DNA of 64,000 nucleotides from Pseudobutyrivibrio sp. (GTDB lineage Bacteria > Bacillota > Clostridia > Lachnospirales > Lachnospiraceae). The notes beneath the pieces are model-generated. The model did not search any database. It was not told the DNA's origin and worked only from the letters and a program-made list of their open reading frames with translations. The stretch is from assembly GCF_017471675.1 (NCBI RefSeq), contig NZ_JAFUSK010000005.1:1-64000 (forward strand), given 5' to 3'. Of the stretch, positions 1,428-46,365 are shown one piece after another (positions within the stretch are counted from its first letter, which is position 1; each line of letters starts with the position of its first letter). The translations under genes and the position numbers were made by a program.

Positions 1428-1443
1428 GTTAGTTAATACTAAC
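1428..1443 (+). promoter_or_regulatory. Palindrome GTTAG-N6-CTAAC before the orphan S component
   Basis: GTTAG-TTAATA-CTAAC is a perfect inverted repeat about 33 bases before the ATG of the membrane protein at 1477. The same pattern recurs near 2063, 4709, 13548, 17181 and 46294 (see findings). It contains an AGTTAA half-site, so it could also be read by the local TetR protein. Confidence 0.55.
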
Positions 1444-1476
1444 AAAAATAATTAACTTAAAGGGAGGAACCTCATC

Positions 1477-2040
1477 ATGAAAGAATGGAACAAAAAGAGT
1501 GCATTAAATATACTGCTTTATGCAGTTCTTTATGCAGTAGGAACAGCGATTGTGTGTGTTACTGGAGCGATTACGCCGGTACTGTTTGTGTGTTATCAGA
1601 TTACGGCAGGAATATTGCTCTCTGGAATCATCATATACGCATTCAGAAAGGTAAAAGCTCCAGGAGTAGCAGCGTGCCTTGGGCTTGCAATGGTTCTGTT
1701 GCTTTTGCTGATTGGGGATGCAGTGGCATGGCATGTAATACCAATCATTATCATAACAGTCCTTGCTGAGGCAGTACGTGCAGTTTTCAAGTATAACTGG
1801 ACAGGAGATGAGATCGGTACTGTGATTATGACATTTTCAAGTTTTGGTTATTACGGACAAATCTGGTTTAACAGAGACTATACCTATGAATGTGCTATAG
1901 AAGAAATGCCTGCAGGGTACGCTGATGGACTTATGGCAGCAAGCCCTGCATGGAGCCTTATTATAGTTATAGCCATCGGAGTAGTATTGTCTGTGCTGAT
2001 ATCAAATGTAACAGCAAAGCTTTTTAAAATTGACAGATAA
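1477..2040 (+). CDS. Orphan ECF-type S component (MptD/Trep_Strep-like)
   Basis: A 187-residue integral membrane protein with about five hydrophobic segments (roughly residues 10-30, 35-55, 62-82, 88-105 and 158-180). Its size, topology and the pattern near the C-terminus (E-Y-A-D/Y-A-D followed by a last membrane helix and a short basic tail) resemble the two S components at 6302 and 17220. I therefore read it as a third substrate-binding membrane subunit, without its own ATPase or T component. It could share either nearby ECF module. The start has AAAGGGAGG upstream. The similarity is judged by eye; other five-helix membrane proteins remain possible. Confidence 0.55.
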   Translation: MKEWNKKSALNILLYAVLYAVGTAIVCVTGAITPVLFVCYQITAGILLSGIIIYAFRKVKAPGVAACLGLAMVLLLLLIGDAVAWHVIPIIIITVLAEAVRAVFKYNWTGDEIGTVIMTFSSFGYYGQIWFNRDYTYECAIEEMPAGYADGLMAASPAWSLIIVIAIGVVLSVLISNVTAKLFKIDR

Positions 2041-2062
2041 AAGCCCTATTTTTTATTATTCC

Positions 2063-2092
2063 TTTAGCAAATGCTAACAAGTGGGGTATAAT
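2063..2092 (+). promoter_or_regulatory. Promoter overlapping a TTAG-N6-CTAAC palindrome
   Basis: TTAGCA (2064-2069) and TATAAT (2087-2092) are 17 bases apart, a good promoter. The -35 lies inside the inverted repeat TTAGCA-AA-TGCTAA (2064-2077), a version of the GTTAG-N6-CTAAC palindrome with one mismatch in the first position. It would drive the flavoprotein remnant and the TetR gene at 2277. Confidence 0.6.
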
Positions 2093-2122
2093 GTTATTAA
2101 TATAGATATGTGGAGGTGGGGT

Positions 2123-2280
2123 ATGGATTTATTCGTAAATGCGTGTACACGCCATGAATCAAGAACAAGGCGCTTGCTGAAAACTATTATGGTATCAAAA
2201 ATGTGGAGCTAATCAAGGCTACAGGGCTTGATATATATGGAGCAGATGTTGAAGCCATAATGGAGGAAGTTATGCTATGA
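2123..2280 (+). pseudogene. Internally deleted NAD(P)H-dehydrogenase-like flavoprotein gene
   Basis: After a good ribosome binding site (GGAGGTGGGG), the frame from ATG 2123 reads MDLFVNACTRHESRTRR, which looks like the start of a flavodoxin-fold NAD(P)H-dependent oxidoreductase. It then stops at about 2210. A second frame just downstream reads YYGIKNVELIKATGLDIYGAD and ends at 2280, resembling the C-terminus of the same family. The middle (normally about 130 residues) is missing. I infer a deletion that left the ends. The TGA at 2278-2280 overlaps the ATG of the next TetR gene, so the remnant may still serve as a translated leader. Confidence 0.6.
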
Positions 2281-2855
2281 ATAAGAATGAAAGCAAGTAT
2301 TTTAAATCCGCAGAAAAAATGCATACAGCGTTGATGACTCTTCTTGATAGTAAAGATTTTGAATATATTTCTGTCAAGGAGTTATGTGAAACAGCAGGAG
2401 TAAACAGATCTACATTCTATCTTCACTATGATAATGTAAATGATCTTTTGCAGGAAACGGTTGAGGCTGTATATAAGGATTTCTTTGGGCGCTTTGGTGC
2501 TGAGGGCTCTGGAGAAATTAATATAGATGATAAAAATGAGGATGAACTATTCCTTATAACACCTAGATATCTGGTGCCATACTTAGATTTTGTGGAAGAA
2601 AATCGAAAGCTTTTTTACCTGATGTATGAAAAGAATGAGATGATGGGCGCTGATAAGACCTATGAAACATGGTTTAAGACTATATTTGCTCCAATTCTTA
2701 CAAGATTTGGAGTTCCACAAAGTGAGCAGCATTTTATAATGGTTTTTTATCTAAAAGGTATTATTGGTGTTATCACAGAATGGGTAAGAGGTGGGTGCAT
2801 TGAGTCAAAAGATGAAATTATAAGCGTTATACAGCGGTGTGTTATAAAGCCATGA
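2277..2855 (+). CDS. TetR/AcrR-family transcriptional regulator
   Basis: A 192-residue regulator with an N-terminal HTH at about residues 31-54 (SVKELCETAGVNRSTFYLHY). This is the TetR pattern with the FYLHYDNVNDLL ending, commonly seen in regulators with a C-terminal TetR_C domain in Firmicutes. Its ATG at 2277 overlaps the stop of the flavoprotein remnant by three bases (ATGA), so it was probably the regulator of that lost enzyme and is translationally coupled to the remnant. The following epimerase gene is a plausible present target. Confidence 0.85.
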   Translation: MNKNESKYFKSAEKMHTALMTLLDSKDFEYISVKELCETAGVNRSTFYLHYDNVNDLLQETVEAVYKDFFGRFGAEGSGEINIDDKNEDELFLITPRYLVPYLDFVEENRKLFYLMYEKNEMMGADKTYETWFKTIFAPILTRFGVPQSEQHFIMVFYLKGIIGVITEWVRGGCIESKDEIISVIQRCVIKP

Positions 2856-3036
2856 TGCAGTAAAACTATATATAGCATTCACGAATCAACACTTTTTGCA
2901 AGACGTGTCGGGACCTATACCCTTAGAATCGACATATTCTGTAAAAAGTGTTGTTCTTTTTGTGCACTCATTTTCCTATAATGACTTCAAGCTCAAAACA
3001 GAGAGCAAAAAATGTAAACAAGAGAGGAAAAGAAAA

Positions 3037-4056: not shown

Positions 4057-4084
4057 CTATAAAATGAAAAGGAGATAAAAAGAG

Positions 4085-4441: not shown

Positions 4442-4456
4442 TGATGGCATAAAAGA

Positions 4457-4579: not shown

Positions 4580-4650
4580 CTATGTTTTCATAGCGTATTA
4601 AATATATTGACAACAAAAAAATTTTGTAGTAATATTTCAAATCGTAAGAA

Positions 4651-4690
4651 TGATAATCCGATTATCGATAATTGAATAATCAGATTATCA
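4651..4690 (+). promoter_or_regulatory. Two TGATAAT-N3-ATTATCA boxes upstream of module 1
   Basis: TGATAAT-CCG-ATTATCG (4651-4667) and GAATAAT-CAG-ATTATCA (4674-4690) are 7-3-7 inverted repeats in the gap before the ATPase at 4726. A third, perfect copy lies at 7636-7656. The half-sites resemble the Bacillus Fur box (TGATAAT-N-ATTATCA), but the spacer is three bases, not one. The reader may instead be the TetR protein encoded at the end of this operon. Confidence 0.5.
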
Positions 4691-4708
4691 TTTATTTTTT
4701 GTTCGAAG

Positions 4709-4724
4709 GTTAGGAGTTTCTAAC
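4709..4724 (+). promoter_or_regulatory. GTTAG-N6-CTAAC palindrome containing the ribosome binding site of module 1
   Basis: GTTAG-GAGTTT-CTAAC ends one base before the ATG at 4726. The likely Shine-Dalgarno (AGGAG, 4712-4716) lies inside the palindrome, so it could act as a DNA operator or fold as a short hairpin that hides the ribosome binding site. It is a perfect copy of the motif found before the other transport genes. Confidence 0.55.
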
Positions 4725-4725
4725 T

Positions 4726-6327
4726 ATGATTACGTTTAACAAAGTCAGTTTTAGTTATAATCAGGAATCTACATTGAACAATCAAGTGCTATCTGATTTT
4801 AATTTGGATATTAAAACAGGACAGGTGATTGTAATAACAGGAGAATCAGGTTGTGGTAAGACTACAGTTGGTAGGCTTATTAATGGTCTGTCGCCCAAAT
4901 ACTATCAGGGAATATTAGAAGGGGAAATAGAAGTCTGTGGCATGCATCCTAATATGCAGGAATTATATGATACTGCAAAGGTTGTAGGTAGTATTTTTCA
5001 GAATCCCAGGACACAGTTTTTTAATGTGGATACAACTAGTGAAATCACATTTGCCTGTGAGAACCAAGGAATGGATATACAGCTAATTAAAGAAAAATTG
5101 GAAGAAGTTGTAACTGATTTCAAGATAGAGGATTTGTTAGATAGAAGTATATTCGAGTTGTCTGGAGGGCAGAAGCAAAAGATCGCATGTTGCTCTATTG
5201 CGGTAGCTGATTCAAAGGTGATTGTTATGGATGAGCCTTCTTCTAATCTGGATTTGCAGGGTATAGATGACTTGAAGGGAGTTATCGAGAAGTGGAAGGC
5301 CCAGGGAAAGACTTTAGTAATTGCAGAACACCGTTTGTACTATCTAAAGGATGTGGCAGATTTAGTGCTTGTAATGAAGGACGGAGTCATCAATAAAATC
5401 ATAGATAAAAGTATGATGAACCATCTTACCATTGATGAAATGCAAAAAATGGGACTTAGAAGTTTTTCCATTGAAGAAGCTTTTGGTGGAAGCATTAATA
5501 GAAGGCAGATTTTTAGGAAAAGCGAAGCTGGCTATCATATTAGCAAGATGAAATTCAGCTATGGCAAATTTGCTGAAGCTATTGATATTGAAGATATTAG
5601 CTTAGAAGCTGGCAAAATTACTGCTTTAGTGGGATTTAATGGAGCAGGCAAAACTACATTTGCCAAATGTCTATGTGGGCTTAATAAAAAATCAAAGGAC
5701 AAAATCCTCAAGGGGAAAACAAGGGTCAGTAAGGCAGATAGAATTAAGGATAGCTTTTTAGTAATGCAAGATGTGAATACTGAACTTTTTGCTGATAGTG
5801 TTCTCGGAGAAGTAATGCTTTCTCTTAGAGAAAAGTATGGAAAAGCTTTTGACGAGTCCATCCATGAGAAGGAAGCTGTGGATATTCTTAGGCTGATGGA
5901 TTTAGATGGTATTAAGGATAGACATCCAATTTCTCTTTCAGGAGGTCAAAAGCAGCGGGTAGCTATAGCCAGCGCAATAGCTGCTGACAAGCAATTAATC
6001 ATATTAGATGAACCTACAAGTGGATTGGATTACAAGCACATGGTGGAAGTAGGAAATGTTATGAAACTTCTTGCTGACATGGGGAAGACCATACTTGTTA
6101 TAACCCATGACATAGAGTTGATTTTATCAACTGTGGATAATGTCATCTGCCTTGAAAAAGGTAAAGTGGTTGATTGCTATGAGTTGACAGATGTGACTAA
6201 ACACAAGTTATATGATTTTTTTTACAGGGTAACTAGATGCACTAGGTCAGATGATTTTACTAGAGACAAAGTTGCATCAATAAATAAAGTGGAGGAATAC
6301 TATGAAAGAAAAAAAGTTACAAACTAA
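4726..6327 (+). CDS. ECF transporter, fused double ATPase (EcfA-EcfA), module 1
   Basis: A 533-residue protein with two complete ABC ATPase domains in tandem. The first has Walker A GESGCGKTT (39-47), signature LSGGQKQKIA (about 145) and Walker B VIVMDEPSSNLD. The second has GFNGAGKTTF (about 303), [10 protein letters not shown] (about 404) and LIILDEPTSGLD. Both sites look intact. Energy-coupling-factor importers use such a pair to power uptake through a T and an S component, and these follow at once (26-base overlap with the S gene). It replaces the usual two separate EcfA proteins. The start ATG 4726 sits behind AGGAG within a palindrome. Module 2 has a homologous ATPase at 18514. Confidence 0.9.
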   Translation: MITFNKVSFSYNQESTLNNQVLSDFNLDIKTGQVIVITGESGCGKTTVGRLINGLSPKYYQGILEGEIEVCGMHPNMQELYDTAKVVGSIFQNPRTQFFNVDTTSEITFACENQGMDIQLIKEKLEEVVTDFKIEDLLDRSIFELSGGQKQKIACCSIAVADSKVIVMDEPSSNLDLQGIDDLKGVIEKWKAQGKTLVIAEHRLYYLKDVADLVLVMKDGVINKIIDKSMMNHLTIDEMQKMGLRSFSIEEAFGGSINRRQIFRKSEAGYHISKMKFSYGKFAEAIDIEDISLEAGKITALVGFNGAGKTTFAKCLCGLNKKSKDKILKGKTRVSKADRIKDSFLVMQDVNTELFADSVLGEVMLSLREKYGKAFDESIHEKEAVDILRLMDLDGIKDRHPISLSGGQKQRVAIASAIAADKQLIILDEPTSGLDYKHMVEVGNVMKLLADMGKTILVITHDIELILSTVDNVICLEKGKVVDCYELTDVTKHKLYDFFYRVTRCTRSDDFTRDKVASINKVEEYYERKKVTN

Positions 6328-6880
6328 AGATTTAATTATGGCAGGTGTATTTGCCGTGCTTTATGTGGCACTTATCTGCATTATGGCATCGCTAACGGGA
6401 ATGTTTATTCCAGTGTATTTGATATTGCCACTTATAGCAGGAATAGTGCTAGGCCCAGTATATACTCTGTATATTTCCAAGGTGCCTAAAATGGGAGCCG
6501 TGCTTATCCTTTCAGTACTTGCCGGCTTTGTAATGTCTGCATCATCTATAGTTGTGCTGTTGTATGTGGTAGTGCTTGGAGTGATTGCACAGATTATTCT
6601 GACCAAAACTAACTATAGTACAAGTGGAATTAGAATTAGCTACATCATATTCGCATGCGCTACAGAAGGACCATTCCTCTCATTGTTCTTTGCAAGAGAA
6701 GGCTTCCTTAATACATGTGCCCAGTACTATGGACAGGAATACGCTGACAAGATTGATGCTGTAACACCTATTTGGGTTCTATTTGTTCAGATTGCTATCG
6801 CGCTAATTGGAGGGTTCATAGGTGGACGCATTGGAATGGGTATGAATGCAAAGCACTTTAAGAAGGCTGGTATAGCATAA
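6302..6880 (+). CDS. ECF transporter S component, MptD/Trep_Strep family, module 1
   Basis: A 192-residue membrane protein with five to six hydrophobic segments and a cytoplasmic tail (KHFKKAGIA). Its pattern, starting KxxLxTKDLIMAGVFAVLY, is that of the family called MptD or Trep_Strep, the substrate-binding subunit of ECF importers. It is very like the protein at 17220 (KDLITIGIFSVLL start, FVKAGIA end). It overlaps the ATPase gene by 26 bases and is followed by the T component with a TAATG overlap, so all three are translationally coupled. The start has GTGGAGG upstream. The substrate is unknown; association with YbtPQ-type ABC genes points to a metallophore or similar ligand. Confidence 0.8.
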   Translation: MKEKKLQTKDLIMAGVFAVLYVALICIMASLTGMFIPVYLILPLIAGIVLGPVYTLYISKVPKMGAVLILSVLAGFVMSASSIVVLLYVVVLGVIAQIILTKTNYSTSGIRISYIIFACATEGPFLSLFFAREGFLNTCAQYYGQEYADKIDAVTPIWVLFVQIAIALIGGFIGGRIGMGMNAKHFKKAGIA

Positions 6881-7599
6881 TGTTTAATGATTTTTCATTT
6901 CAGGGAGAGGGCTTCATAAAAATAGATCCTAGGACCAAGATGATTATTTTTATCCTGTGTTCAATTGCAGCACTTAGGGAATCTAGGACTTTATTTCAAG
7001 GCTTGCTGTTTTTCTTTACTTTTGCCCTTTTAATTAATGGTAAACAATTCATATTTGCCATTAAGATGCTTATATTATATGGGGTGATGATTGGTATAGA
7101 TTTGTTAGTTATGATGTTTTGTCTACCGGAAGCTCTTATGATTTTGCTGATGGGAATAAGAGTGTTTAGGATGTTTCTTCCTGTTATGATGGCTTTTGCG
7201 ATTATAATTAAGACCACCAGAGTATCGGAATTTTTAGCAGCTTTTGACAAGATGCATGTGCCTGAGGAAATAACAATTCCGTTTTCAGTAATGTTTAGGT
7301 TTTTTCCCACTATAGGGGAAGAATGGGACAATATCCAAAACGCAATGAAATTTAGAGGCTTTGCCTTAACTTTTAAAAATATTATAACCAGGCCTGCTTT
7401 TGTTTACGAGTGTTCAATCGTTCCATTGTTATCTGATACAGTTCTAATTGCTGATGAGCTTTCTGCAGCTTCACTCTGTAGGGGCTTAGGAGCTAATACT
7501 AAACGAACAAGTCTGGTGGAAGTTCGTATGGGCGTGTTTGATTATATGTTAATAGGATTTGCGATATGGCTAAATATAATGTCATATACTGCATATTAA
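6880..7599 (+). CDS. ECF transporter T component (EcfT/CbiQ family), module 1
   Basis: A 239-residue membrane protein that couples the ATPase to the S component. It starts with IKIDPRTKMIIFIL, the usual T-component opening, and has four to six membrane helices. Near the C-terminus it has the coupling motif SAASLCRGLG (about residues 194-203), corresponding to the conserved A-x-x-x-R-G that contacts the ATPases. Its ATG shares a base with the stop of the S gene. The paralogue of module 2 at 17816 has LAASAVTRGI at the same place. Confidence 0.88.
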   Translation: MFNDFSFQGEGFIKIDPRTKMIIFILCSIAALRESRTLFQGLLFFFTFALLINGKQFIFAIKMLILYGVMIGIDLLVMMFCLPEALMILLMGIRVFRMFLPVMMAFAIIIKTTRVSEFLAAFDKMHVPEEITIPFSVMFRFFPTIGEEWDNIQNAMKFRGFALTFKNIITRPAFVYECSIVPLLSDTVLIADELSAASLCRGLGANTKRTSLVEVRMGVFDYMLIGFAIWLNIMSYTAY

Positions 7600-7635
7600 A
7601 ATTAGTGCCATTTTATGGCACTAAAATTTAGATCA

Positions 7636-7656
7636 ATTGATAATTGGATTATCAAT
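7636..7656 (+). promoter_or_regulatory. Perfect 21-bp palindrome before the ABC pair of module 1
   Basis: ATTGATAAT-TGG-ATTATCAAT is a perfect inverted repeat 23 bases before the ATG at 7680. It is the best copy of the 7-3-7 box seen twice at 4651-4690, which suggests that the ECF part and the ABC pair are controlled by the same protein. A small hairpin (GTGCCA/TGGCAC at about 7606-7621) lies just upstream and may be a weak terminator or processing site. Confidence 0.6.
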
Positions 7657-7679
7657 GGTGCGTTGATAAGGAGGATAAA

Positions 7680-9449
7680 ATGCTTAAAAAGATTTTGAAG
7701 TACACAGGAGAGTACAAGAAATACACATTTAAAGCAATGATATTTCTAATTGTTGGACTACTCTTTAACGTAGTACAGTTCTTATCCATTTACAAAATGA
7801 TTGATGGAGCAATATCAGGCGAAAGAACTGTGAAATACTACCTAATTTGGCTGGGAGTATTTTTAGTATGTGGTCTTATCTATATGATGCTTTATATATA
7901 TGGATTGGTTCAGTCACATTTTAGTGCATATCACACCCTTAAGAACCTTAGAATATCTCTCCAGGGCAAGCTAGAGAAGTTACCACTTGGAATAATACAG
8001 GAACTGGGAGTGGGTTCTTTAAAAAAGGTATTTATTGATGATATAGACAATATGGAGTTGCTTCTAGCACACGCTCTACCTGAGGGATTTTCAAATGTAT
8101 GTGTGCCAACAATAGTCATAATTGCTATGTTTTTCATCGACTGGAAGTTGGCGTTACTTTGTCTGGCGGCTTTGCCGCTTGGCATTATCTCTATGATGGC
8201 AATGTACATGGCAGGCACCAGCAAAATGGGGGATTTCTACTCATCTGCCCAGAAAATGAATGCAACGATTGTGGAATACATCAATGGTATGGAAGTAGTA
8301 AAAATATTTGGTAGAGATGGTGAAAGCTACAAGAGATTTTCTACTGATGTTATGAGTTATAGAGATTTTACCCTTGCCTGGTATAAGATGTGCTGGCCAT
8401 GGATGGCTCTTTACGGAAGCTTTTTGCCATGTGTAGCCCTATTTACCTTGCCAGTAGGTGGCTACTTCGTATATACGGAATTATCAACGCTTTCAAACTT
8501 CCTATTAATACTTTGCATGGCATTTTCTATAGGACCTACTATTATGAAGGCTATGTCCTTTATGAGTGTATTACCTCAGCTCAATTATAAAATAGAAACC
8601 TTGGAAAATATTCTGTCTGCCGCGCCTCTCAAGGAAGGAACTTCTGAATTTAAAGGAAAGGACAGAAGTATTCAGTTTGAAAATGTGTCTTTTGCATACG
8701 ATGGAGAAAATACTGTAATCAATAATGTAAATTTAGATATTGAAGCTAATTCTGTTACTGCACTTGTAGGTGAATCGGGAAGTGGCAAATCTACCTTGGC
8801 TAAATTATTAGTTCACTTTTATGATGTGACCACTGGAGTGGTAAAAATAGGTGGTCAAGATATTACAGATATGACACTTGAAAGTCTAAACAATGAGATA
8901 TCATTCGTATCTCAGGAGCAGTTTCTTTTTAACATGAGCATTTTAGAGAATATAAGACTTGGCAGACCTGAAGCCACAAGGGCTGAGGTTATCGAGGCGG
9001 CTAACAAGGCTCAGTGTAAAGATTTCTTAGACAGGCTGGAGCATGGCATAGATTCCATGGCTGGAGATTCTGGAAAGATGCTTTCAGGTGGCGAAAGACA
9101 GCGAATAGCCCTGGCTCGTGCCATTCTTAAGAATGCTCCGATTATAGTTTTGGATGAAGCTACTGCTTTTATGGATCCTGAGAATGAGGAAAAAATGAAT
9201 CAGGCCATTGCAGAGCTTATCAGTGAAAAGACTGTAATAGTAATTGCGCATAGACTTTATTCTATTAAAAATGCAGATAAAATCGTGGTTATGAATGAGG
9301 GACAAATTGTTGCTGCTGGAAAGCATGAGGAGCTTTTACTTAGCTGCGATAAATATAAGAACTTATGGGAACTTTCAGAGGGAACAAAGAACTGGTCTGT
9401 TACTAGCAGGGATGATGACCAAGCGAAAAAGGAGGAGATATTGGCATGA
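7680..9449 (+). CDS. ABC transporter, TM plus ATPase half, YbtP/YbtQ-like, module 1
   Basis: A 589-residue half-transporter: about six membrane helices (residues 20-310) followed by an ATPase with Walker A GESGSGKSTL (about 364), signature LSGGERQRIA and Walker B IIVLDEATAFMD. The fold is that of type IV ABC exporters. Pairs of this kind placed beside ECF or siderophore genes (YbtP/YbtQ of Yersinia, IrtAB of mycobacteria) act in ferric-siderophore import. Start ATG 7680 follows AAGGAGG at 7668-7674; the frame is open to 7644 but that segment contains the operator. It overlaps the next gene by four bases, indicating a heterodimer. Confidence 0.88.
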   Translation: MLKKILKYTGEYKKYTFKAMIFLIVGLLFNVVQFLSIYKMIDGAISGERTVKYYLIWLGVFLVCGLIYMMLYIYGLVQSHFSAYHTLKNLRISLQGKLEKLPLGIIQELGVGSLKKVFIDDIDNMELLLAHALPEGFSNVCVPTIVIIAMFFIDWKLALLCLAALPLGIISMMAMYMAGTSKMGDFYSSAQKMNATIVEYINGMEVVKIFGRDGESYKRFSTDVMSYRDFTLAWYKMCWPWMALYGSFLPCVALFTLPVGGYFVYTELSTLSNFLLILCMAFSIGPTIMKAMSFMSVLPQLNYKIETLENILSAAPLKEGTSEFKGKDRSIQFENVSFAYDGENTVINNVNLDIEANSVTALVGESGSGKSTLAKLLVHFYDVTTGVVKIGGQDITDMTLESLNNEISFVSQEQFLFNMSILENIRLGRPEATRAEVIEAANKAQCKDFLDRLEHGIDSMAGDSGKMLSGGERQRIALARAILKNAPIIVLDEATAFMDPENEEKMNQAIAELISEKTVIVIAHRLYSIKNADKIVVMNEGQIVAAGKHEELLLSCDKYKNLWELSEGTKNWSVTSRDDDQAKKEEILA

Positions 9450-11200
9450 TTAATTCAATAAAGAGAATACTTAATGTCTCAGGTAAATATAAGGCACGTA
9501 TTGAATTTGCATTCATTTTTTCTTTTTTTAAATCACTTCTTCAAAATGCAGCTTTAGTGCTTGCAGTATTTATGGTAAATGGTTTTATGAGCAACAGTCT
9601 TGTTGAAAAGGACTTTATTAAATATGGAATAGTTCTTTTATCATGTGTGTTGCTCCAGGCGGTTTGCATTAATATTGCAGACAGGCTTCAATCAGGAGCA
9701 GGATTTATGCTTATGGCTGATTTGCGTATCAAATTGGGTGAGCATCTAAGGAGACTTCCTATGGGATATTTCACCAGTGGAAATATTGGCAAGATTAGTT
9801 CTGTTTTATCTACAGATATGGTATTTATCGAGGAAAATTCTATGATGACATTGGCTGACACCATCAGCGATTTTTTCTCAGCTATTATATTTGTAATATT
9901 TATGCTTGTGTTTAATCCAGTTATTGGAGTGGTTGCACTAGTTGGAACTATTACTATGATTCTTATTGGTGAGGGAAAATTCAAAAGTGGCATTTCCTTG
10001 TCTTTAGATCGTCAAGAGCAAAGTGAAAAACTTACTAATGCGGTACTTGATTATGTAGAGGGAATTGGAATTACAAAGACTTATAATCTCCTCGGGGACA
10101 AGTCAACAGAGATGAAAAAGAACTTTGATAAATCCTGTGAAGAAAGCTTACGTTTTGAAAATATTCAGGTGCCATGGGGAATAGCTGTGAATATTGCATT
10201 TGAAATTCTTTCTGCAGCAATTGCATTTACAGCTGTGTTGCTCTTTTTAAATGGTAATCTAAGCCTTACATACTTTTTAGGAACGATGTTATTTGTCTTA
10301 GATATTTTCATTCCGCTTAGAGTGGTATATATGGACTCTGAGAAGCTTACTATCATGGATAAATGTCTAGACAGAATAGACTCTGTTATGAATGAGCTTG
10401 AGCTGTCTGATGATAGTAATAAAAAGGTATCTAAGCAAAGCTTAAAGGTTCCTACTGTGGAATTTCGGAATGTAAGATTTTCTTATGATTCTAAGGAAAC
10501 GATTTCTAATGTGTCCTTTAAAGTTATGGAAGGGCAGACAATAGCATTAGTTGGTCCTTCGGGAAGTGGTAAGACCACCCTTGCTAATCTAATGGCAAGA
10601 TTTTGGGATATAGATTCGGGAGAAATTCTTATCAATGGAACTTCCATTAAGAATGTAGCATTATCATCACTTTTGGAACAGATTAGTATGGTATTTCAGA
10701 ACGTATACCTGTTTAGGGATACCATCTACAACAATATTGCCATGGGTCGCCCAGAGGCTACTAAGGATGAGATTATAGAAGCAGCAAAAAAGGCTCGTTG
10801 CTATGATTTTATTATGTCCCTTCCAGATGGATTTGAAACTATGGTAGGTGAAGGAGGAGCGTCTCTTTCTGGTGGAGAGAAGCAGCGTATATCTATAGCT
10901 AGATGTATTCTAAAAGATTCGCCTATAGTTATACTTGATGAGGCAACAGCCAGCATCGATGCAGATAATGAAGCAGCTATTCAGCAAGCTATTAGCGAAT
11001 TGTGCAAGGGAAAGACACTTATAATTATTGCGCACCGATTAAAGACAATAAAGGATGCTGATTGCATTCTGGTTGTTAATGATGGTAAAATCATTGAAAA
11101 AGGAAGTCATGAACAGCTGATGGAGCATGACGGTCTTTACAAAAATTTTGTTCAGATTAAAAATTCTGATTCAGGATGGTGTAAAAGGAAAATCGGTTAA
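9446..11200 (+). CDS. ABC transporter, TM plus ATPase half, YbtP/YbtQ-like partner, module 1
   Basis: A 584-residue half-transporter forming the second subunit with the preceding protein (ATGA overlap at 9446-9449). The membrane domain covers about residues 15-310. The ATPase has Walker A GPSGSGKTTL (about 370), signature LSGGEKQRIS and Walker B IVILDEATASID, all intact. It is more like the second ABC of module 2 in gene position than in sequence. A TetR gene follows after two bases, so the unit ends with its own regulator. Confidence 0.88.
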   Translation: MINSIKRILNVSGKYKARIEFAFIFSFFKSLLQNAALVLAVFMVNGFMSNSLVEKDFIKYGIVLLSCVLLQAVCINIADRLQSGAGFMLMADLRIKLGEHLRRLPMGYFTSGNIGKISSVLSTDMVFIEENSMMTLADTISDFFSAIIFVIFMLVFNPVIGVVALVGTITMILIGEGKFKSGISLSLDRQEQSEKLTNAVLDYVEGIGITKTYNLLGDKSTEMKKNFDKSCEESLRFENIQVPWGIAVNIAFEILSAAIAFTAVLLFLNGNLSLTYFLGTMLFVLDIFIPLRVVYMDSEKLTIMDKCLDRIDSVMNELELSDDSNKKVSKQSLKVPTVEFRNVRFSYDSKETISNVSFKVMEGQTIALVGPSGSGKTTLANLMARFWDIDSGEILINGTSIKNVALSSLLEQISMVFQNVYLFRDTIYNNIAMGRPEATKDEIIEAAKKARCYDFIMSLPDGFETMVGEGGASLSGGEKQRISIARCILKDSPIVILDEATASIDADNEAAIQQAISELCKGKTLIIIAHRLKTIKDADCILVVNDGKIIEKGSHEQLMEHDGLYKNFVQIKNSDSGWCKRKIG

Positions 11201-11902: not shown

Positions 11903-12547
11903 ATGAGAACAGCTAATGAGTATAAGGAACTGACTATAAAAGAATTTACAAAAGCAGCAGATGTATATGAATCAAACCATTCAGGGATCTATGAAATATG
12001 TAAGGAGGATTATCCTTATATTTCATCAGAGCTTGAGAAGGAAGATTATAATGAACTTTTGGATTGTGGATGTGGTACAGGTCCAATGATATCACTTCTT
12101 TATGAAAAGGATTCTACAAAGCATTATACAGGATTGGATATTACGCCTAGAATGATTGAAGTGGGAAAGTCTAAGAACCTAAAAGGGGTAGACTGGATTG
12201 TTGGTGACTGCGAGAATTTGCCTTTTGAAGAAAACACTTTTGATGTTGTGATTTGCTCTAACAGCTTTCATCATTACCCTAATCCCCAGAAGTTTTTTGA
12301 TAGTGTACACAAAGTATTACGTCCAGGCGGAAGGCTAATTCTTCAGGATTATACAGCGCCAAAGGTTATTCTTTGGATTATGAATCATACAGAAATGCCA
12401 CTTGCAAATCTGATTGGTCATGGTGATGTGGCAGCCAGATCACTTGATGAAATTAGAAGCTTTTGTGATAATTCAGGTCTCAGGGTGGAAAAGCTAAAGC
12501 GTGCCAGAAAAATGCGCATGCATTTGGTTGCAAGGAAAGTGAGTTAA
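11903..12547 (+). CDS. Class I SAM-dependent methyltransferase
   Basis: A 214-residue methyltransferase. Motif I is LLDCGCGTGPM (about 52-62), an acidic residue follows at the next strand (YTGLDITPRM), motif II/III appear as GDCENLPFEENTFDVVICSNSFHHYPNP and the end of motif III as VLRPGGRLIL. This is the UbiE/COQ5-like Methyltransf_11 pattern, acting on a small molecule. The start ATG 11903 has AGGGGGG just upstream. It lies between the two transport modules and converges with the AraC gene with a four-base overlap of stops. It could modify the transported ligand, but that is inference from position. Confidence 0.85.
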   Translation: MRTANEYKELTIKEFTKAADVYESNHSGIYEICKEDYPYISSELEKEDYNELLDCGCGTGPMISLLYEKDSTKHYTGLDITPRMIEVGKSKNLKGVDWIVGDCENLPFEENTFDVVICSNSFHHYPNPQKFFDSVHKVLRPGGRLILQDYTAPKVILWIMNHTEMPLANLIGHGDVAARSLDEIRSFCDNSGLRVEKLKRARKMRMHLVARKVS

Positions 12548-13512
12548 AACTTTCTGCGGAAAGCCTTGCGGTAAGCGAGGGGGAGTAAGCCCTTGGCACT
12601 TCTGAAAAGCTCGGCAAAATGACCTGGGGAAATGTATCCTACAGCCTTAGCCACTTCGGAAACTGGTAAATCTGTAAAGGCAAGAAGATGCTCCGCGTGG
12701 TCAATCCTAACCTTTTGGATATATTCGGCTACAGTCATTCCGTAGTAAAGCTTGAAGGTTGATTTCAGCTTAGTGGTGCCCATGCATGCAATCTTAGATA
12801 GCGATTCAATTGAAATACGGTCTGCATAATGGTCGTTAATATATAGCCCAAGGCTTTTAAGCATCTCTTCATCTTTTGATGGTAGAGATGCTTTTTCTTT
12901 TTCATTCAGTTTTCTGTGTCGTTCAAATACTAGGGCAAGGGCTTCTCTAACCTTGCCGTCATAATAAAGGGCAGCGCTTTGGCTTGTTCCCTTATATTTT
13001 AATATCTCCCATAGAAGCTTTTTCATCTCAGGAAAATCTGCAGTTTCATCTATGCTTCTAAAGGCCGACTTTGGGTCTTCATAAATATCTCCAAAGCTAC
13101 TTTTTAGAACTTCATGAAAAAAATCAGGTCGATATTCAATACCAATGGAGCGTATTGGAATGTTGCGATGAATCAGGGCTCGATATGGCTCATAGCCACC
13201 AAGAAAGCTCTTGATAACATTGCAACTCATACTGCGATATGGATTTAATTCTTCACCACTAATAGATTCATACCAGGTCACGCTTAAGCATTCTGGTAAT
13301 TCAAAATCTAAGACCTGATCCTCATAAAAAGAGAAGTCATGTATTTTAATATTGTATTTTCCTGGAATTTCGTAATACCAATAATAGCCTTCACCAAGGT
13401 TTGGTGCAAAAGTATAGCAATCGCCCCCAGGAGGAAAGCCTTCTGGTGAAGCGCAGGGTATAAAATTTGTTTTTTGAAATAATTCTTTGTAATCGTCTTT
13501 TTTCTTATTCAT
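12544..13512 (-). CDS. AraC-family regulator, divergent from module 2
   Basis: A 322-residue protein with a C-terminal pair of helix-turn-helices (about residues 220-315, with SIESLSKIACMGTTKLKSTFK and VSEVAKAVGYISPGHFAELF). The N-terminal 200 residues are a sensing domain. This architecture with the C-M-G-T-T-K-L-K helix resembles the PchR/YbtA type of siderophore-responsive activators, which fits the neighbouring YbtPQ-like pair. It is divergent to the ABC gene at 13638 and the gap carries palindromes at 13548 and 13593. The ATG 13512 is used here; a TTG at 13527 is in frame but lacks a ribosome binding site. Confidence 0.82.
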   Translation of the reverse strand: MNKKKDDYKELFQKTNFIPCASPEGFPPGGDCYTFAPNLGEGYYWYYEIPGKYNIKIHDFSFYEDQVLDFELPECLSVTWYESISGEELNPYRSMSCNVIKSFLGGYEPYRALIHRNIPIRSIGIEYRPDFFHEVLKSSFGDIYEDPKSAFRSIDETADFPEMKKLLWEILKYKGTSQSAALYYDGKVREALALVFERHRKLNEKEKASLPSKDEEMLKSLGLYINDHYADRISIESLSKIACMGTTKLKSTFKLYYGMTVAEYIQKVRIDHAEHLLAFTDLPVSEVAKAVGYISPGHFAELFRSAKGLLPLAYRKAFRRKF

Positions 13513-13547
13513 TTCATTTTGTTCCAATCAGACACAATGTTATTTAA

Positions 13548-13563
13548 ATTAGACTAAACTAAC
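13548..13563. promoter_or_regulatory. TTAG-N6-CTAAC palindrome in the divergent AraC/ABC promoter
   Basis: ATTAG-ACTAAA-CTAAC lies between the AraC gene and module 2. Over 15 bases it differs from the site at 17182-17196 by a single base (TTAGASTAAACTAAC), so the ABC pair and the S-T-ATPase group are probably bound by the same protein. The first base breaks the perfect five-base half-site. Confidence 0.55.
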
Positions 13564-17180: not shown

Positions 17181-17196
17181 GTTAGAGTAAACTAAC
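17181..17196 (+). promoter_or_regulatory. GTTAG-N6-CTAAC palindrome before the module 2 ECF genes
   Basis: GTTAG-AGTAAA-CTAAC is a perfect inverted repeat 24 bases before the ATG of the S gene at 17220. A putative ribosome binding site (AAGGAAGAAAGG) follows. The position suits a repressor or iron-type regulator blocking initiation. Confidence 0.6.
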
Positions 17197-17219: not shown

Positions 17220-17819
17220 ATGAATAATGAAAAGAATGGTTTTACAGCTAAAGATTTAATTACGATTGGTATATTTTCAGTATTATTGCTTTTGGCAATG
17301 ATGCTTACAGGAGGACCTTTTTCTGCGGTTCCTACGCTGACATTTTATTTTCCAATAGGGGCTGCTGTTTTAGCAGGGCCGATATTCATGTTATTTATTG
17401 CGAAGGTGCCAAAGCAGGGAGCACTAATAATTGTTGGAGCTGTGTTGTGTATTCTTGGCACTGTTACAGGAATGCATTGGGGACTTAACTTTGGCTTTTT
17501 GATTTCTGCAACCCTGGCTGGATTAATTGCAGGAATAGGCAAATTTAAAAGTAATGTATTAAATCTTATAGCGTATATCGTTTACTGTATTGGACCAATG
17601 GGAACTTATTTTGTGTTTATACTTAATAAGGAATCATGGGTATCGTTTATGCTGAAGAAGGGAACAGAGCAGGAGTACATTGATAAAATGAGTGAAGTAG
17701 CAACTGGCTCTACTATTGCAATAATGATAGTGGGAACAATAGTTGTAGCTACTTTAAGTGGATTATTGGGACTTCGCCTTATGCGTAAGCAGTTCGTAAA
17801 GGCTGGTATAGCAGCATGA
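17220..17819 (+). CDS. ECF transporter S component, MptD/Trep_Strep family, module 2
   Basis: A 199-residue, largely hydrophobic protein with about six membrane segments. It shares with the S component at 6302 the opening KDLIxxGxFxVLL, the central PKxGAxxI motif and the end FxKAGIA. These are substrate-binding subunits of ECF importers. The gene overlaps the T component by four bases (ATGA). The shared motif PK-M/Q-GA suggests a related substrate for both modules. Confidence 0.8.
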   Translation: MNNEKNGFTAKDLITIGIFSVLLLLAMMLTGGPFSAVPTLTFYFPIGAAVLAGPIFMLFIAKVPKQGALIIVGAVLCILGTVTGMHWGLNFGFLISATLAGLIAGIGKFKSNVLNLIAYIVYCIGPMGTYFVFILNKESWVSFMLKKGTEQEYIDKMSEVATGSTIAIMIVGTIVVATLSGLLGLRLMRKQFVKAGIAA

Positions 17820-18517
17820 TTACCCTTGATCCAAGAACCAAGGTTTTGTTATTAATATTGACTGCAATCTTTAGTGCCTCTATTCCAAACGGTATTTATA
17901 CCTTAGTTTGGATTATCCTTACAACAATACTTGGGATTATGCTTAAAAGAGCATTAAAGACAGCTAGGGCCGCAATAATTTTTGCGGCTCTTTGGCTGTT
18001 TGCAAGCTTCATACTTCCAAACATAGGAGGTGTATTACATACAAGTCTATTAGTTTGGCTTGGATTAGTTTTCAAGTGCTATCCTTGCTGTATGATTGCA
18101 GCTTTATTCATCTCCACCACCCAAATAGGGGAGTTTATGGCAGCTATGTCTAAGTGGCGGGTTCCAAGAAGTGTGGTTATTCCACTGGCCATAATGTTTA
18201 GATATTTTCCCACAGTGAAAGAAGACTGGGGTCACATCAAAGATGCTATGACATTAAGAGGAATCAGCCTGTCCCCTGGTTATTTTCTTAAGAATCCAGG
18301 AGTTGTCGTAGACGCTTTGTATCTGCCTATTCTTGTAACAGCATCTAATGCAGCTGATGACCTTGCAGCTTCTGCCGTTACAAGAGGTATTGAAAATCCA
18401 AGAATTAGAACAAGTAGGTTGGATATTAGAATAAGATTAATTGATATAATAGTTTTTTTGATTTTTGCGGTTGCTTTAATAGTTGGTATGGGGCTAAGCA
18501 CTGGAGGATATGTATGA
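17816..18517 (+). CDS. ECF transporter T component, module 2
   Basis: A 233-residue membrane protein opening with ITLDPRTKVLLLIL and containing the coupling motif LAASAVTRGI near residue 185, as in EcfT proteins. Four or more membrane helices are visible. It overlaps both neighbours (four bases each), so S, T and ATPase are made in fixed proportion. Confidence 0.88.
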   Translation: MITLDPRTKVLLLILTAIFSASIPNGIYTLVWIILTTILGIMLKRALKTARAAIIFAALWLFASFILPNIGGVLHTSLLVWLGLVFKCYPCCMIAALFISTTQIGEFMAAMSKWRVPRSVVIPLAIMFRYFPTVKEDWGHIKDAMTLRGISLSPGYFLKNPGVVVDALYLPILVTASNAADDLAASAVTRGIENPRIRTSRLDIRIRLIDIIVFLIFAVALIVGMGLSTGGYV

Positions 18518-19905
18518 ATGTAGAGTTTAAAAATGTAGGCTTTTCCTATCCTGATACAGCAGAAGGAACACTTAAAGATATCAGCTTTTGCATCAAGAAT
18601 GGAGAGTTTGTTCTTCTGGTAGGCGAATCTGGCTGCGGCAAAACCACTATTACAAGAATCATTAATGGACTTATTCCAGGTTTTTATGGAGGTAAGCTTA
18701 CAGGTGATGTGCTGATTGATGGTAAGAAAGTGTCCGATTACAAAAGCTATGAGTTATCTAATGTTGTAGGTAGTGTGTTTCAAAATCCCAGGACTCAGTT
18801 TTTTAATGTAGATACTGATAGTGAAATCGCATTTGGGCTTGAAAATGCTGGGAAATCCAGTGAAGAAATAAATGCAACCTTGGATAAGGTAACAGAGGAG
18901 CTAAACATTCAAGAATTAAGAAATAGGGATATCTTTAAATTGTCTGGGGGAGAAAAGCAAAAGATAGCTTTTGCAAGTGCGTATGCTTCTAATCCTGAGA
19001 TATTTCTATTGGATGAGCCATCTGCGAACCTGGATACAGTGGGAATAGAGGGGCTTAAAGAATGCCTTGAAAAAATAAAAAATAATGGGACTACAGTTAT
19101 TATTGCAGAACATCGTCTTTTCTATTTAGCAAATCTTGTGGATAGAGTGCTATATCTAAAAGATGGTGTAATAGAAAGAGAGATTTCAGGTGACGAATTC
19201 AGGTCTATGAGTAGAGCTACTCTAAACGCAATGAATCTTAGGTCTAATGCATACATTAGTCTTAATGAAACTGAAAGCTATCAAATAGTTGATATTTTAG
19301 AAAAGGGATTATGCATTAGAAATCTTTCTGTTGAATATAAGAAAAGAAGAGTATTTGAAAGTATAAATATGGATTTTATGCCTGGACAAATCTATTGCAT
19401 TATAGGCAATAATGGTGCAGGAAAGAGCACTTTGCTTAGAAGTATTTGTGGGCTTCTTTCTGCTACTGCAGGCGACATATATATAGATGGGCTTAGAATG
19501 AAGAGAAAAGATCTTCAAAAGAAAGCTTTTATGGTAATGCAGGATGTTAATTATCAGCTATTTGCTGATTCTGTTATAAACGAATGCATATTGGGAACAG
19601 AAAAGAGCAGTAGTATTTGGGTCGAAAAAATATTAGATGAAATGGGGCTTTTGGAATACAAAGAAAGACATCCTAACACCTTATCTGGTGGACAAAAACA
19701 AAGACTGGCAATTGCTGTTAGCTTAATGATGGATAAGGATATTCTATTATTTGACGAACCCACCAGTGGACTTGATTACAAAAATATGCATCTATGTGCC
19801 GACTTTCTAAATATGTTAGCGCAGAAGGATAAAGTGATTATTGTAGTTACTCACGACGAAGAATTTATGGAGTGCTGTTGCGACAGAATTTACAAATTGA
19901 ACTAA
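18514..19905 (+). CDS. ECF transporter, fused double ATPase, module 2
   Basis: A 463-residue protein with two ABC ATPase domains. Domain 1 has Walker A GESGCGKTT (about 37), signature LSGGEKQKIA and Walker B IFLLDEPSANLD. Domain 2 has GNNGAGKSTL (about 298), [10 protein letters not shown] and ILLFDEPTSGLD. It is 70 residues shorter than the module 1 version (533), mainly by lacking the long C-terminal tail and some linker. It is the last gene of module 2. Confidence 0.9.
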   Translation: MNVEFKNVGFSYPDTAEGTLKDISFCIKNGEFVLLVGESGCGKTTITRIINGLIPGFYGGKLTGDVLIDGKKVSDYKSYELSNVVGSVFQNPRTQFFNVDTDSEIAFGLENAGKSSEEINATLDKVTEELNIQELRNRDIFKLSGGEKQKIAFASAYASNPEIFLLDEPSANLDTVGIEGLKECLEKIKNNGTTVIIAEHRLFYLANLVDRVLYLKDGVIEREISGDEFRSMSRATLNAMNLRSNAYISLNETESYQIVDILEKGLCIRNLSVEYKKRRVFESINMDFMPGQIYCIIGNNGAGKSTLLRSICGLLSATAGDIYIDGLRMKRKDLQKKAFMVMQDVNYQLFADSVINECILGTEKSSSIWVEKILDEMGLLEYKERHPNTLSGGQKQRLAIAVSLMMDKDILLFDEPTSGLDYKNMHLCADFLNMLAQKDKVIIVVTHDEEFMECCCDRIYKLN

Positions 19906-43002: not shown

Positions 43003-43185
43003 TTAATTTTTTTGTATGAAATAAAAAACGACACGCCGAGCGAATTAAAAAATATCATAGTAATGAATAATAGTCAAGTAAAAGTTATATATTGATATTG
43101 TAAATGATACATGCGTTAAATATATAACATTGCGAGAGCAGGGGATTCCATATTAAAAAAAGATTATTTTAGAATCAATGAAATT

Positions 43186-43582: not shown

Positions 43583-43651
43583 ATCCAAATGTTATCTTGA
43601 TACATGTTAAGAGGAGTTAAGCGAAAGCTATTAGCAATGGAGGAGAAAAAC

Positions 43652-44404
43652 ATGTATCAAAAAGGCTTAAAAGTGTTTAGAACATTATCTGCATTATCTC
43701 TTAGTGCAATCATTATTTTATTCTCATTTCCTATGGAATCAAATGCTGAAGAATCTATTGTTTATTCTGCAGATGCATCAGATTTCGTATTGTTAAGTGA
43801 TGCTGTACCTGATGCAATTTTAGAAATTCGCTATTATTCAACATATAATTTTATAGGGGATAGAGTAGAGGGGTATGAGGAGCCAGTGGCGCTACTTACA
43901 AAAGAAGCTGCTACAGCTTTAAAGGCAGCCAGTGATGAACTTGTAGCAAAGGGCTATAGATTGAAGATTTATGATGCCTATAGACCTCAGATGGCAGTTA
44001 CTAATTTTGTAAACTGGGCACAGGATTCTAAGGATACAAGAATGAAGCAGTATTTCTATCCAGAGCTTCAGAAGAATGTATTATTTCCACAGGGATATAT
44101 TGCTGAGCATTCTGGTCATAGCCGTGGAAGTACAGTAGACCTTACTTTGTTTGATATGCGAACAGGAAAGGACGTTGATATGGGCGGTACCTTCGATTAC
44201 TTCGGAGAGCTTAGCCATCCTGACTACACTGGCATCACTAAAGAACAGTATGCAAACCGCATGCTTTTAAGAGATGTTATGCTTCGTCATGGGTTTAATC
44301 CATTGGCAGAAGAGTGGTGGCATTTTACTCTTGCTAATGAACCATATCAAAATACTTATTTCACATTCTCAGTAAGCGCATCCTCTGTAAAAGAAAAATT
44401 ATAA
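43652..44404 (+). CDS. VanX-type D-alanyl-D-alanine dipeptidase, exported
   Basis: A 250-residue zinc peptidase of family M15D. A signal peptide (about 1-32, ending SNAEE) precedes the domain. The metal motif is SGHSRGSTVDLTLF (H, D) and EWWHFTL (catalytic E and H), and AYRPQMAVTNFV is also family-typical. Enzymes of this kind hydrolyse D-Ala-D-Ala dipeptide; here export suggests wall-peptide scavenging rather than vancomycin resistance, as no vanH or vanA is near. The start ATG 43652 has GGAGGAG six bases upstream; the earlier frame start 43604 is not supported. Confidence 0.88.
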   Translation: MYQKGLKVFRTLSALSLSAIIILFSFPMESNAEESIVYSADASDFVLLSDAVPDAILEIRYYSTYNFIGDRVEGYEEPVALLTKEAATALKAASDELVAKGYRLKIYDAYRPQMAVTNFVNWAQDSKDTRMKQYFYPELQKNVLFPQGYIAEHSGHSRGSTVDLTLFDMRTGKDVDMGGTFDYFGELSHPDYTGITKEQYANRMLLRDVMLRHGFNPLAEEWWHFTLANEPYQNTYFTFSVSASSVKEKL

Positions 44405-44503
44405 AAAAAATGTGAAAAAAGCCTATAGATAAGCCTTTTCTTTTATAATTACTGTATTAGGGTTTATGTGTATTAATATACATAATGTATTGGAGGAAAA
44501 GGT

Positions 44504-46177
44504 ATGAATAAGAAGAAGGGGACAATAGCACAGGCACTAAATGGTTTTTCGTCATTTACTATCAAGCTGTTTCAAGGAATAACTTTGATAATGGCAATAT
44601 TCCTGGCCGTGATTTTTGTTAATATTTATAGCTTTTACAATGTGCAATTTGTAACCGAAACCTACCAGATGGAAATCAGAAAGGATGTGCAGACAATTAA
44701 TAAGCGTTTGCTTCTTGCTGTTGCATCTAATGATTCTGAGGTTACAGCTGCGCAGAAGGAGGATTTGGAGGAAAGATTCCCTAAGATTGAGGGATATTTT
44801 TCTACTATTTCCAAGAACCTTAACAACGATACGTTAGGTGCTCAGCTTACAACTAATTGGAAAGCCTTTGAGGATGCTTCCTTTGAGATGTTGGCTTTAG
44901 TAGAAAATGGAGATTCTGAGAGCGCTTTAGAATATTATAATTCTACACTTAATGATGTATCAGAGACCTTAGCAGATTCTTTGGATGAAACTGGTACACT
45001 TGCAGAAAAAGCTGCAGCTGGTAAATATAGAATAATTCTTGTTATTATAGGCGCTGCAGTTGTTGTTTTAATAGTAGGACTTATTGTAATCACAACAATT
45101 AATAAGAAAAAGAGCAAAGCCCTCATTCAAGAAATAGAAGAGGATTTGGATGTTCTTGCAAAGGCTACAGAAGAGATCGCTAAGGGCAATGTTCATGTAG
45201 ATATTGATTATGATGCTGATAACGAAATTGGAAGAGTTGCAAATCAGCTTAGAACAGCAGTTGAATCGCTGATTTATTACATCGATGAGATTGGAAACAA
45301 GATGTCTACCATGGCACAGGGCAATTTCGATATTGCCTTTGATAGAGATTTTAATGGTGATTTTAGAGATATCCAGAATGCAATCGAATCATTTTCACAG
45401 CAGATATCTGATTCTATGACGGAGATTATGGAAGTATCTGATATGGTATCAAATGGTGCTAACCAGATTGCTGGCGCAGGACAAAACCTTGCAGATACAG
45501 TTACATCTCAGGCAAATATCGTTGACGATTTGTCAGTTACAGTAAATAGAATTACAGATCAGATTTCTAACAGCTCTACAGATGCCACAACTATTTCAAA
45601 AGAGGTTGAGGTGGTTGCAGAAAATATTGTAGAAGGCAATAAGAGGATGCAGGATGTTGTAAATGCTATGGATGCCATTTCATCATCTTCTCAGGAGATT
45701 TCAAAGATTATTGATACAATCAATGAAATCGCAGATGAAACTAACCTGTTGTCACTGAATGCTTCTATTGAGGCGGCAAGAGCTGGTGAGGCAGGAAAGG
45801 GCTTCGCAGTTGTTGCAGGAGAGGTTTCAAAGCTGGCAGGACAGACAGTGGAGGCAGCTCAGGATACAGCAGAGCTTATTAACGCTTCCCTAAGAAACGT
45901 AGAAATTGGTATTTCTATAGCAAATGATACAGCCACAAAGCTTAATGACATGGTTGACCAGGTTCAGGGAATTGCTGGCAAGGTTAAATCTATTGCTGAG
46001 GCATCTAATACACAGGCTGAATCAGTTAAGGAAATGTCAAATGACATCGGTGAGATTTCTTCTGTTGGACAGAACAATGCAGCTACATCAGAGGAGTCAC
46101 TTGCATTAAGCTACGAGATGAACGAGCATGCTAATTCACTTAAGGGATTAGTTGAAAAGTTTAATCTTAAAAGATAA
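44504..46177 (+). CDS. Methyl-accepting chemotaxis protein with four-helix-bundle sensor
   Basis: A 557-residue chemoreceptor. Two membrane segments (about 18-40 and 170-195) flank an extracellular helical region of about 130 residues that looks like a four-helix-bundle MCP sensor. HAMP and linker follow, then the signalling domain with the tip [20 protein letters not shown]. It has GGAGGAAAAGGT before the ATG. It is a single-gene unit ended by a clear terminator. Confidence 0.93.
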
Positions 46178-46194
46178 ATAATGTATATCTATTA

Positions 46195-46224
46195 GAGGGC
46201 CAAATATAACGGCCCTCTTTTTTA
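46195..46224 (+). terminator. Terminator after the chemoreceptor gene
   Basis: GAGGGCC-aaatataac-GGCCCTC is followed by six T residues. It is a textbook Rho-independent terminator. Confidence 0.92.
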
Positions 46225-46257
46225 TATAAAATTTTTCTAATTCCCTATTTAAAATTC

Positions 46258-46365
46258 TTGACGATTTTACATAGTTCTGTTAATCTACTTATGGTTAGGA
46301 AATGCTAACCTATGTGTAAATCATTGTGGAACTCCCTTATATTGTTGCTACCAATTGGGAGTTCC
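46258..46365 (+). promoter_or_regulatory. Enolase promoter, GTTAG-N6-CTAAC site and leader hairpin
   Basis: TTGACG (46258-46263) and TAATCT (46281-46286) are 17 bases apart. Just downstream, around the likely start, lies GTTAG-GAAATG-CTAAC (46294-46309), a perfect copy of the palindrome near the transport genes. Then GGAACTCCC (46328-46336) and GGGAGTTCC (46357-46365) can form a nine-bp hairpin in the leader, with no T-run, so it is more a stabilising or regulatory stem than a terminator. Confidence 0.6.

Follow-up and report, generated by a model that had tools for sequence, protein, structure and literature searches.

Why should an enolase gene carry the same upstream palindrome as a set of transport genes? 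In the 64,000-nucleotide stretch of a Pseudobutyrivibrio sp. genome analysed here (contig NZ_JAFUSK010000005.1, positions 1 to 64,000; hereafter the window), the 16-bp sequence GTTAG-N6-CTAAC lies 5′ of genes of both kinds. We consider it very probable that this palindrome is the operator of P0001, a predicted metal-dependent repressor that belongs to the DtxR family, has two domains and would serve as the iron regulator here and in many Lachnospiraceae. Binding by P0001, Fe2+ as the metal and repression as the direction are what we infer from comparing sites, proteins and genomes.

The palindrome is far more frequent than expected. An earlier note on this DNA had listed four perfect copies and two copies with one mismatch, and had estimated that about 0.1 perfect copies should occur per 64 kb. 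All six were recovered at the positions it gave, together with a seventh copy, again with one mismatch, that was missing from its list (61496; Table 1), and the excess is borne out: dinucleotide shuffles of the window yield a mean of 0.06 perfect copies, and none of 100 shuffles reaches four. With up to one mismatch allowed, the mean is 1.64 copies, and none of 100 reaches seven. Among spacers of 0 to 14, perfect copies occur in the window at spacer 6 alone. The whole-genome scan that the note had proposed gave 19 perfect copies at spacer 6 in 3.1 Mb, against 15 summed over the 16 other spacers between 0 and 16, and few copies lie outside promoters; the reversed pattern, used as a control, occurs four times. 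For the perfect copies, chance and base composition are ruled out by the shuffles, the spacer scan and the reversed control. The note had also placed its copies within promoter regions, which holds for the four perfect ones if a promoter region is taken as the 5′ region of a gene. All three one-mismatch copies in the window retain the TTAG-N6-CTAA core and differ only in the outermost base, a change also present in 8 of the 43 core-perfect sites preceding dtxR orthologues.

Which protein could read these sites? The note was right to follow the resemblance of the half-site to that of DtxR and IdeR (TTAG/CTAA) and wrong that the spacing differs, because the units of the IdeR box and the single-dimer consensus both have TTAG-N6-CTAA. 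The 19-bp IdeR box TTAGGTTAGSCTAACCTAA consists of two interleaved units of this kind, and TTAGGNNNNCCTAA has been proposed as the half site of a single SeIdeR dimer, with new targets expected in other species (PMC8464063). The palindrome shares with the latter the spacing and the use of one dimer; for SeIdeR this is a newly reported exception, whereas in Lachnospiraceae it would be the standard operator. The palindrome matches neither TTAGGTTAGSCTAACCTAA nor TTAGGNNNNCCTAA beyond the core spacing. None of the 19 genome copies has the inner G...C pair that marks the IdeR half site, a count that is weak by itself since an inner G fills just 13% of positions, and none of the 73 enolase copies has it either. 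When nothing but the core is required, 35 of 43 sites at dtxR orthologues have an outer G...C, as do 23 of 23 enolase sites in the genus and 50 of 54 at other close enolases. Read from sequence, the operator has the geometry of a DtxR site but prefers flanks of its own. A CRP/FNR-type site, whose 5-N6-5 geometry would fit, was rejected because the half-site resembles that of DtxR and a site stands before the regulator's own gene. It is also unlikely that the local AraC-type or TetR-like protein is the binder, given that sites precede unrelated genes throughout the genome and the family.

P0001 (125 aa) is the sole PF01325 protein found in the genome by profile search. It matches PF01325 with 36.7 bits (cut-off 26) and PF02742 with 56.3 bits (cut-off 27), and its gene has a perfect site 112 bp upstream. 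The other perfect copies precede what are largely iron-starvation genes, with fermentation genes added (Table 1). P0001 resembles IdeR and DtxR of Actinobacteria: a winged helix-turn-helix is joined to a metal-binding and dimerisation domain, and an operator with a TTAG/CTAA core lies over the promoter of iron-uptake targets. It differs from them in ending just past PF02742, without the C-terminal SH3-like domain, and in using a single 16-bp operator with outer G and C instead of a 19-bp two-dimer box. The host differs as well, being a low-GC Gram-positive, a group of which a review says that most members use Fur for iron, with DtxR-family proteins limited to manganese (PMC10317159).

The sites are also widespread in the family. 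Across 298 Lachnospiraceae genomes there are 1861 copies of the motif and 581 of the reversed control (Wilcoxon p 5e-33; these family-wide statistics treat genomes as independent although they are related); the motif exceeds the control in 227 genomes and falls below it in 41. In the 288 genomes with a P0001 match the mean is 6.41 copies, against 1.97 for the control; in the ten genomes without a match the motif is at control level (1.4 versus 1.3; Mann-Whitney p 6e-5 between the two groups). Across the class, at least one copy is present in 209 of 293 genomes, and the regulon may therefore extend outside Lachnospiraceae. Some Clostridia outside the family are motif-rich too, with 16 copies against 0 for the control in G352, 18 against 3 in G397 and 19 against 4 in G517. 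One genome of the family, G133, has 43 perfect copies against 2, which could reflect an expanded regulon or a site-carrying repeat.

Conservation before orthologues points the same way. Among 80 of the 296 dtxR orthologues found, a perfect site lies within 300 bp upstream in 35, and a site with at most one mismatch in 46 (for two loci, L096 and L099, the upstream stretch was shorter). At any other spacer between 0 and 12, one perfect copy is the most that is obtained. Nineteen of these loci come from Pseudobutyrivibrio or B. fibrisolvens 16/4, with 17 perfect; without them, 18 of 61 are perfect and 27 of 61 have at most one mismatch. Of 54 genomes among the matches listed for both genes, 30 have dtxR no more than 6 kb from feoB; at least one more genome, G132, has them on different contigs and was left out. 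At feoB itself, 20 of 30 relatives have a perfect site and 28 of 30 one with at most one mismatch; 13 of these loci had just 210–534 bp upstream of the gene, and all 17 with about 1 kb have a perfect site. Before pflB, 26 of 28 loci in the genus have a perfect site (30 loci, of which L207 and L208 were dropped). Enolase promoters of the genus are perfect in 23 of 23 cases, with 20 different N6 spacers (26 loci, of which L177–L179 lacked an N-terminus and were dropped). In other Lachnospiraceae, close enolases (76–87% identical; 88 of 89 rows, G052 being passed over) have a perfect site in 46 of 88 promoters. Distant enolases (20 rows at 61–66% identity, with 29 intermediate and all lower rows left out) have one in 0 of 20; the classes are defined by pairwise identity, not by a tree. 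G013, which has both kinds, carries the site at the close enolase (L234) and none at the distant one (L316), and six control spacers gave no perfect copy at family enolase promoters. The note had read the palindromes as one regulon whose sites should be conserved upstream of orthologues in related strains. They are conserved there, and together with the genome-wide targets and the spacer specificity this strongly supports a single regulon.

Several observations weigh against our interpretation. No site with at most one mismatch was found within up to 300 bp upstream of 34 of the 80 regulator orthologues, 42 of the 88 close-enolase promoters lack a perfect site, and outside the genus only 5 of 28 pflB loci have one. 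Three of the 20 distant enolases come from regulator-less genomes (G040, G093, G240), and the co-occurrence test depends on just ten such genomes and ignores shared ancestry. The presence of hypB, whose role is in nickel insertion, is unexpected in a regulon that spares iron. A separate caveat concerns the weaker sites: one-mismatch copies number 21 genome-wide, not above a rough chance estimate of about 28 (0.94 per other spacer × 30 variants), and six of them fall within open reading frames (ORFs) of 162–995 aa; taken individually, such copies are unproven. In S. aureus, several glycolytic enzymes rise on iron starvation (PMC1557832), yet this switch works through Fur, not DtxR, the word enolase is absent from that paper, and the parallel is only partial because PflB falls there. 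The last two points, an asparagine among the predicted metal ligands and a Fur-family gene beside that of P0001, bear on which metal is sensed and which protein binds.

The same protein on the same operator might sense manganese, as MntR does, or both metals. The predicted ligands N11, E14, H80, C102, E105 and H106 are the same in all 81 sequences compared; their equivalences come from the alignment of P0001 with its MntR structure match, in which C102 aligns with MntR Glu99. IdeR has a cysteine at the position of Glu99, and an asparagine at the position of Asn11, where IdeR has Met10, is a feature of MntR (PMC10317159). The ligand set thus appears to mix an MntR-like Asn11 with an IdeR-like Cys102, and from sequence Asn11 would be compatible with Mn2+. 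P0001 also shares with MntR of B. subtilis and E. coli the two-domain architecture without an SH3 domain, its best PDB matches are MntR, and so are its best NCBIfam models, which score below their cut-offs (80.1 bits with a cut-off of 153, and 68 with a cut-off of 138). Against manganese stand the invariant cysteine in place of Glu99, targets that are iron genes (feo, FecCD-type uptake, flavodoxin) and the position of the regulator gene as the divergent neighbour of feoB in 27 of the 54 genomes compared. We regard manganese sensing as improbable.

Could another regulator bind the sites, such as the Fur-family protein encoded beside P0001? Its gene (L023:3725-4189, minus strand) starts about 120 bp downstream of the dtxR-like gene and could share its promoter. 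The protein is an unusual Fur relative, with a Pfam match that covers residues 18–79 of 154 only and a cysteine-rich C-terminal half. The sites have the TTAG/CTAA core of the DtxR family rather than a Fur-box sequence, and motif enrichment tracks P0001 across genomes (co-occurrence was examined for P0001 alone). A Fur-family binder seems very unlikely.

A single dimer of Fe2+-loaded P0001 would occupy GTTAG-N6-CTAAC, covering the promoter or the bases immediately 3′ of it, and prevent transcription. When iron runs short, the dimer would leave the DNA and so switch on Fe2+ uptake by feoAB, siderophore-type importers, the exporter and energy-coupling factor (ECF) modules, the flavodoxin operon and the regulator itself, along with enolase and, in Pseudobutyrivibrio, pyruvate formate-lyase. 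With enolase and pflB induced, more carbon would flow to pyruvate and formate at times when enzymes rich in iron fail, as is expected of pyruvate:ferredoxin oxidoreductase under iron shortage. If this is correct, a family whose members are abundant anaerobes of gut and rumen would seem to regulate iron through a DtxR-family protein that has an operator of its own, and the placing of enolase and (in the genus) pflB under one switch ties central fermentation to iron supply. The operator also allows the regulon to be predicted in hundreds of genomes. We found no description of such a regulon, or of iron control of enolase, in Lachnospiraceae among the titles and abstract openings of the open-access literature.

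How would the switch work at enolase? The site starts 7 bases past the TAATCT of a promoter that was read by eye and that a consensus promoter scan did not list, and so coincides with the predicted transcription start; all 23 enolase promoters examined in the genus have a TAnnCT element at this distance from the site. IdeR boxes that cover the start or the −10 element repress (PMC10317159), and we infer Fe2+-dependent repression that iron shortage relieves. Since the site at eno and pflB lies at or just past the predicted start, and a structured leader follows at eno, the palindrome might instead work at the RNA level, forming a 5-bp hairpin in 5′ leaders. An RNA stem would permit compensating changes; the ten half-site bases are fixed and show none (23 of 23 and 26 of 28 perfect), and the genome-wide excess is confined to spacer 6. 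Fixed half-sites around a drifting spacer are the pattern of a protein-binding site, and the hairpin reading, which we regard as very improbable, was rejected in favour of a DNA operator. In 7 of the 23 genus promoters (strict match), a wider inverted repeat made of GGAGTTCTG and CAGA(A/G)CTCC brackets the site.

Even with real operators at enolase, the direction might be the opposite, or the effect slight, with the iron-loaded regulator activating or mildly tuning the gene. DtxR-family proteins can activate some genes (PMC10317159), iron-rich cells would seem to pay dearly for turning off the one enolase detected, and cultured P. xylanivorans Mz5 has measurable enolase activity (PMC2914790); the position over the predicted +1 is a repressing one in IdeR systems. 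We hold activation or tuning to be possible, though rather unlikely. Equally tentative is the proposal that in many Lachnospiraceae enolase is inducible by iron starvation, with an IdeR-like repressor as the off-switch for the close ('type A') enolase and a structured leader as a second layer, and that Pseudobutyrivibrio might bypass enolase when iron-rich.

This proposal bears on a known puzzle. Enolase loss in Butyrivibrio and Pseudobutyrivibrio has been described, and its benefit is unclear (PMC2914790, PMC6118326, PMC6912079, PMC7523725); the enolase of B. fibrisolvens 16/4 is reported to be truncated, and older work cited in the same paper found enolase activity undetectable or extremely low in B. 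fibrisolvens extracts (PMC2914790). If enolase were off in iron-rich medium, such low or undetectable activity would be predicted, and conditional expression, if true, would explain both the old reports and the repeated loss of the gene in the group. Activity measured in P. xylanivorans Mz5, B. fibrisolvens D1 and B. hungatei JK615 speaks against conditional expression (PMC2914790). The papers on loss treat the same gene and lineage; the word iron is absent from the main text of PMC2914790, PMC6912079 and PMC7523725, and our literature search found no test of an iron effect on enolase in these bacteria. The operator offers a testable explanation for enolase loss in rumen butyrivibrios. In our data, an enolase match is absent from 4 of 29 genus genomes, two of them at least 99% complete (G301, G324) and two 83–86% complete (G311, G313), and from 50 of the 298 family genomes searched. 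Two more genus genomes, G298 and G322 (77% complete), contain a short remnant alone, and no perfect site was found within the 5 kb examined at the G298 remnant. The window's genome has one enolase match only, and a second enolase was not found in Pseudobutyrivibrio.

The leader between site and enolase gene may be a further layer of control. A TAAATCAT-like stretch, in a broad pattern drafted after viewing the sequences and searched in 45 nt of boxed and 110 nt of unboxed leaders, is present in 61 of 67 leaders with an operator (boxed; at least 60 nt) and in 7 of 58 without (unboxed); the strict pattern [AG]AATCAT within 300 bp occurs in 45 of 73 versus 6 of 58. Folding is stronger than in shuffles (z below −2) for 45 of 67 boxed leaders, 6 of the 73 being under 60 nt and dropped, and for 16 of 58 unboxed ones; the window's own leader, with its hairpin GGAACTCCC...GGGAGTTCC, folds modestly (z −1.73). 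For 19 genus leaders the structure predicted by RNAalifold is limited to an apical stem of four pairs; pairing is preserved in 76 of 76 cells, and both sides have changed at each of the four pairs. For 15 leaders from other genera, in a sequence-based alignment, RNAalifold gave no common structure. Rfam 15 gave no match at gathering score in ten enolase and pflB loci. The leader of boxed enolases looks like a candidate new cis-acting RNA.

Table 1. Palindrome copies and associated features. Positions without a contig handle refer to the window; C numbers denote contigs of the same genome.
Feature	Position	Strand	Remarks
Perfect palindrome	1428..1443		5′ of orphan ECF S component ORF 1477-2040 (Pfam Trep_Strep)
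One-mismatch copy, outermost base	2063..2078		5′ of TetR-like gene 2277-2855; unproven
Perfect palindrome, module 1	4709..4724		overlaps AGGAG of ECF ATPase gene 4726-6327
Module 1	4726..11200	+	ECF ATPase, MptD/Trep_Strep S component, CbiQ-like T component, two ATP-binding cassette (ABC) exporter half-transporters
One-mismatch copy, outermost base	13548..13563		between araC-type gene 12544-13527 (−) and exporter pair 13638-17097 (+)
Perfect palindrome	17181..17196		39 bp 5′ of module 2 S component 17220-17819
Module 2 ECF S, T and A components	17220..19905	+	T component scores below CbiQ cut-off
Predicted enolase promoter TTGACG-17-TAATCT	46258..46286	+	read by eye
Perfect palindrome	46294..46309		on predicted enolase transcription start
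Enolase leader	46310..46391	+	conserved TAAATCAT-like stretch, then hairpin GGAACTCCC...GGGAGTTCC
Enolase (eno)	46392..47690	+	NCBIfam TIGR01060, 651 bits (cut-off 300)
One-mismatch copy, outermost base	61496..61511		220 bp 5′ of FTCD_C-family gene 61716-62330; unproven, may be chance
DtxR-like regulator gene (P0001)	C15		one perfect copy 5′
feoA-feoA-feoB	C50		one perfect copy 5′
Peripla_BP_2/FecCD/ATPase uptake operon	C34:32118		perfect copy and one-mismatch copy 41 bp away
ECF S-component or module starts, four	1428, 4709, 17181; C34:5282		perfect copies
Exporter pair	C34:8870		perfect copy
Gene run	C34:11651		perfect copy; first gene FAA-hydrolase-family, last AraC-type
ABC ATPase and permease pair	C34:40098		perfect copy; named by reading the sequence, without domain scan
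DUF3793-flavodoxin pair	C19		perfect copy
pflB	C21		perfect copy
hypB and flavin/Fe-S protein	C17		perfect copy
Methyltransferase	C42		perfect copy
Divergent pair including a thioesterase	C82		two perfect copies 40 bp apart
Membrane-protein-like ORF	C66:4859		perfect copy; without domain scan
Enolase	46294		perfect copy
No clear target	C66:13994		perfect copy; contig end

Some features of the transport units deserve mention. An inverted repeat, ATGATAATC...GATTATCAT, lies 5′ of module 1 at 4650-4691 and resembles Fur-box halves; module 1 may have a second metal switch. An Rfam scan of the window gave two tRNAs and no other match. As to orthologues for the site at 13548, among the matches listed in 28 other genus genomes no full-length match to the module 2 exporter exceeds 36% identity; one partial match reaches 48%. 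In C34:5451-7082 (G000, L018), the second half-transporter of the boxed exporter pair has one in-frame TGA, which indicates a broken gene or an assembly error. At exporter loci in relatives, a set that includes paralogues and unrelated exporters, a perfect site lies within 400 bp of the ORF start in 8 of 30.

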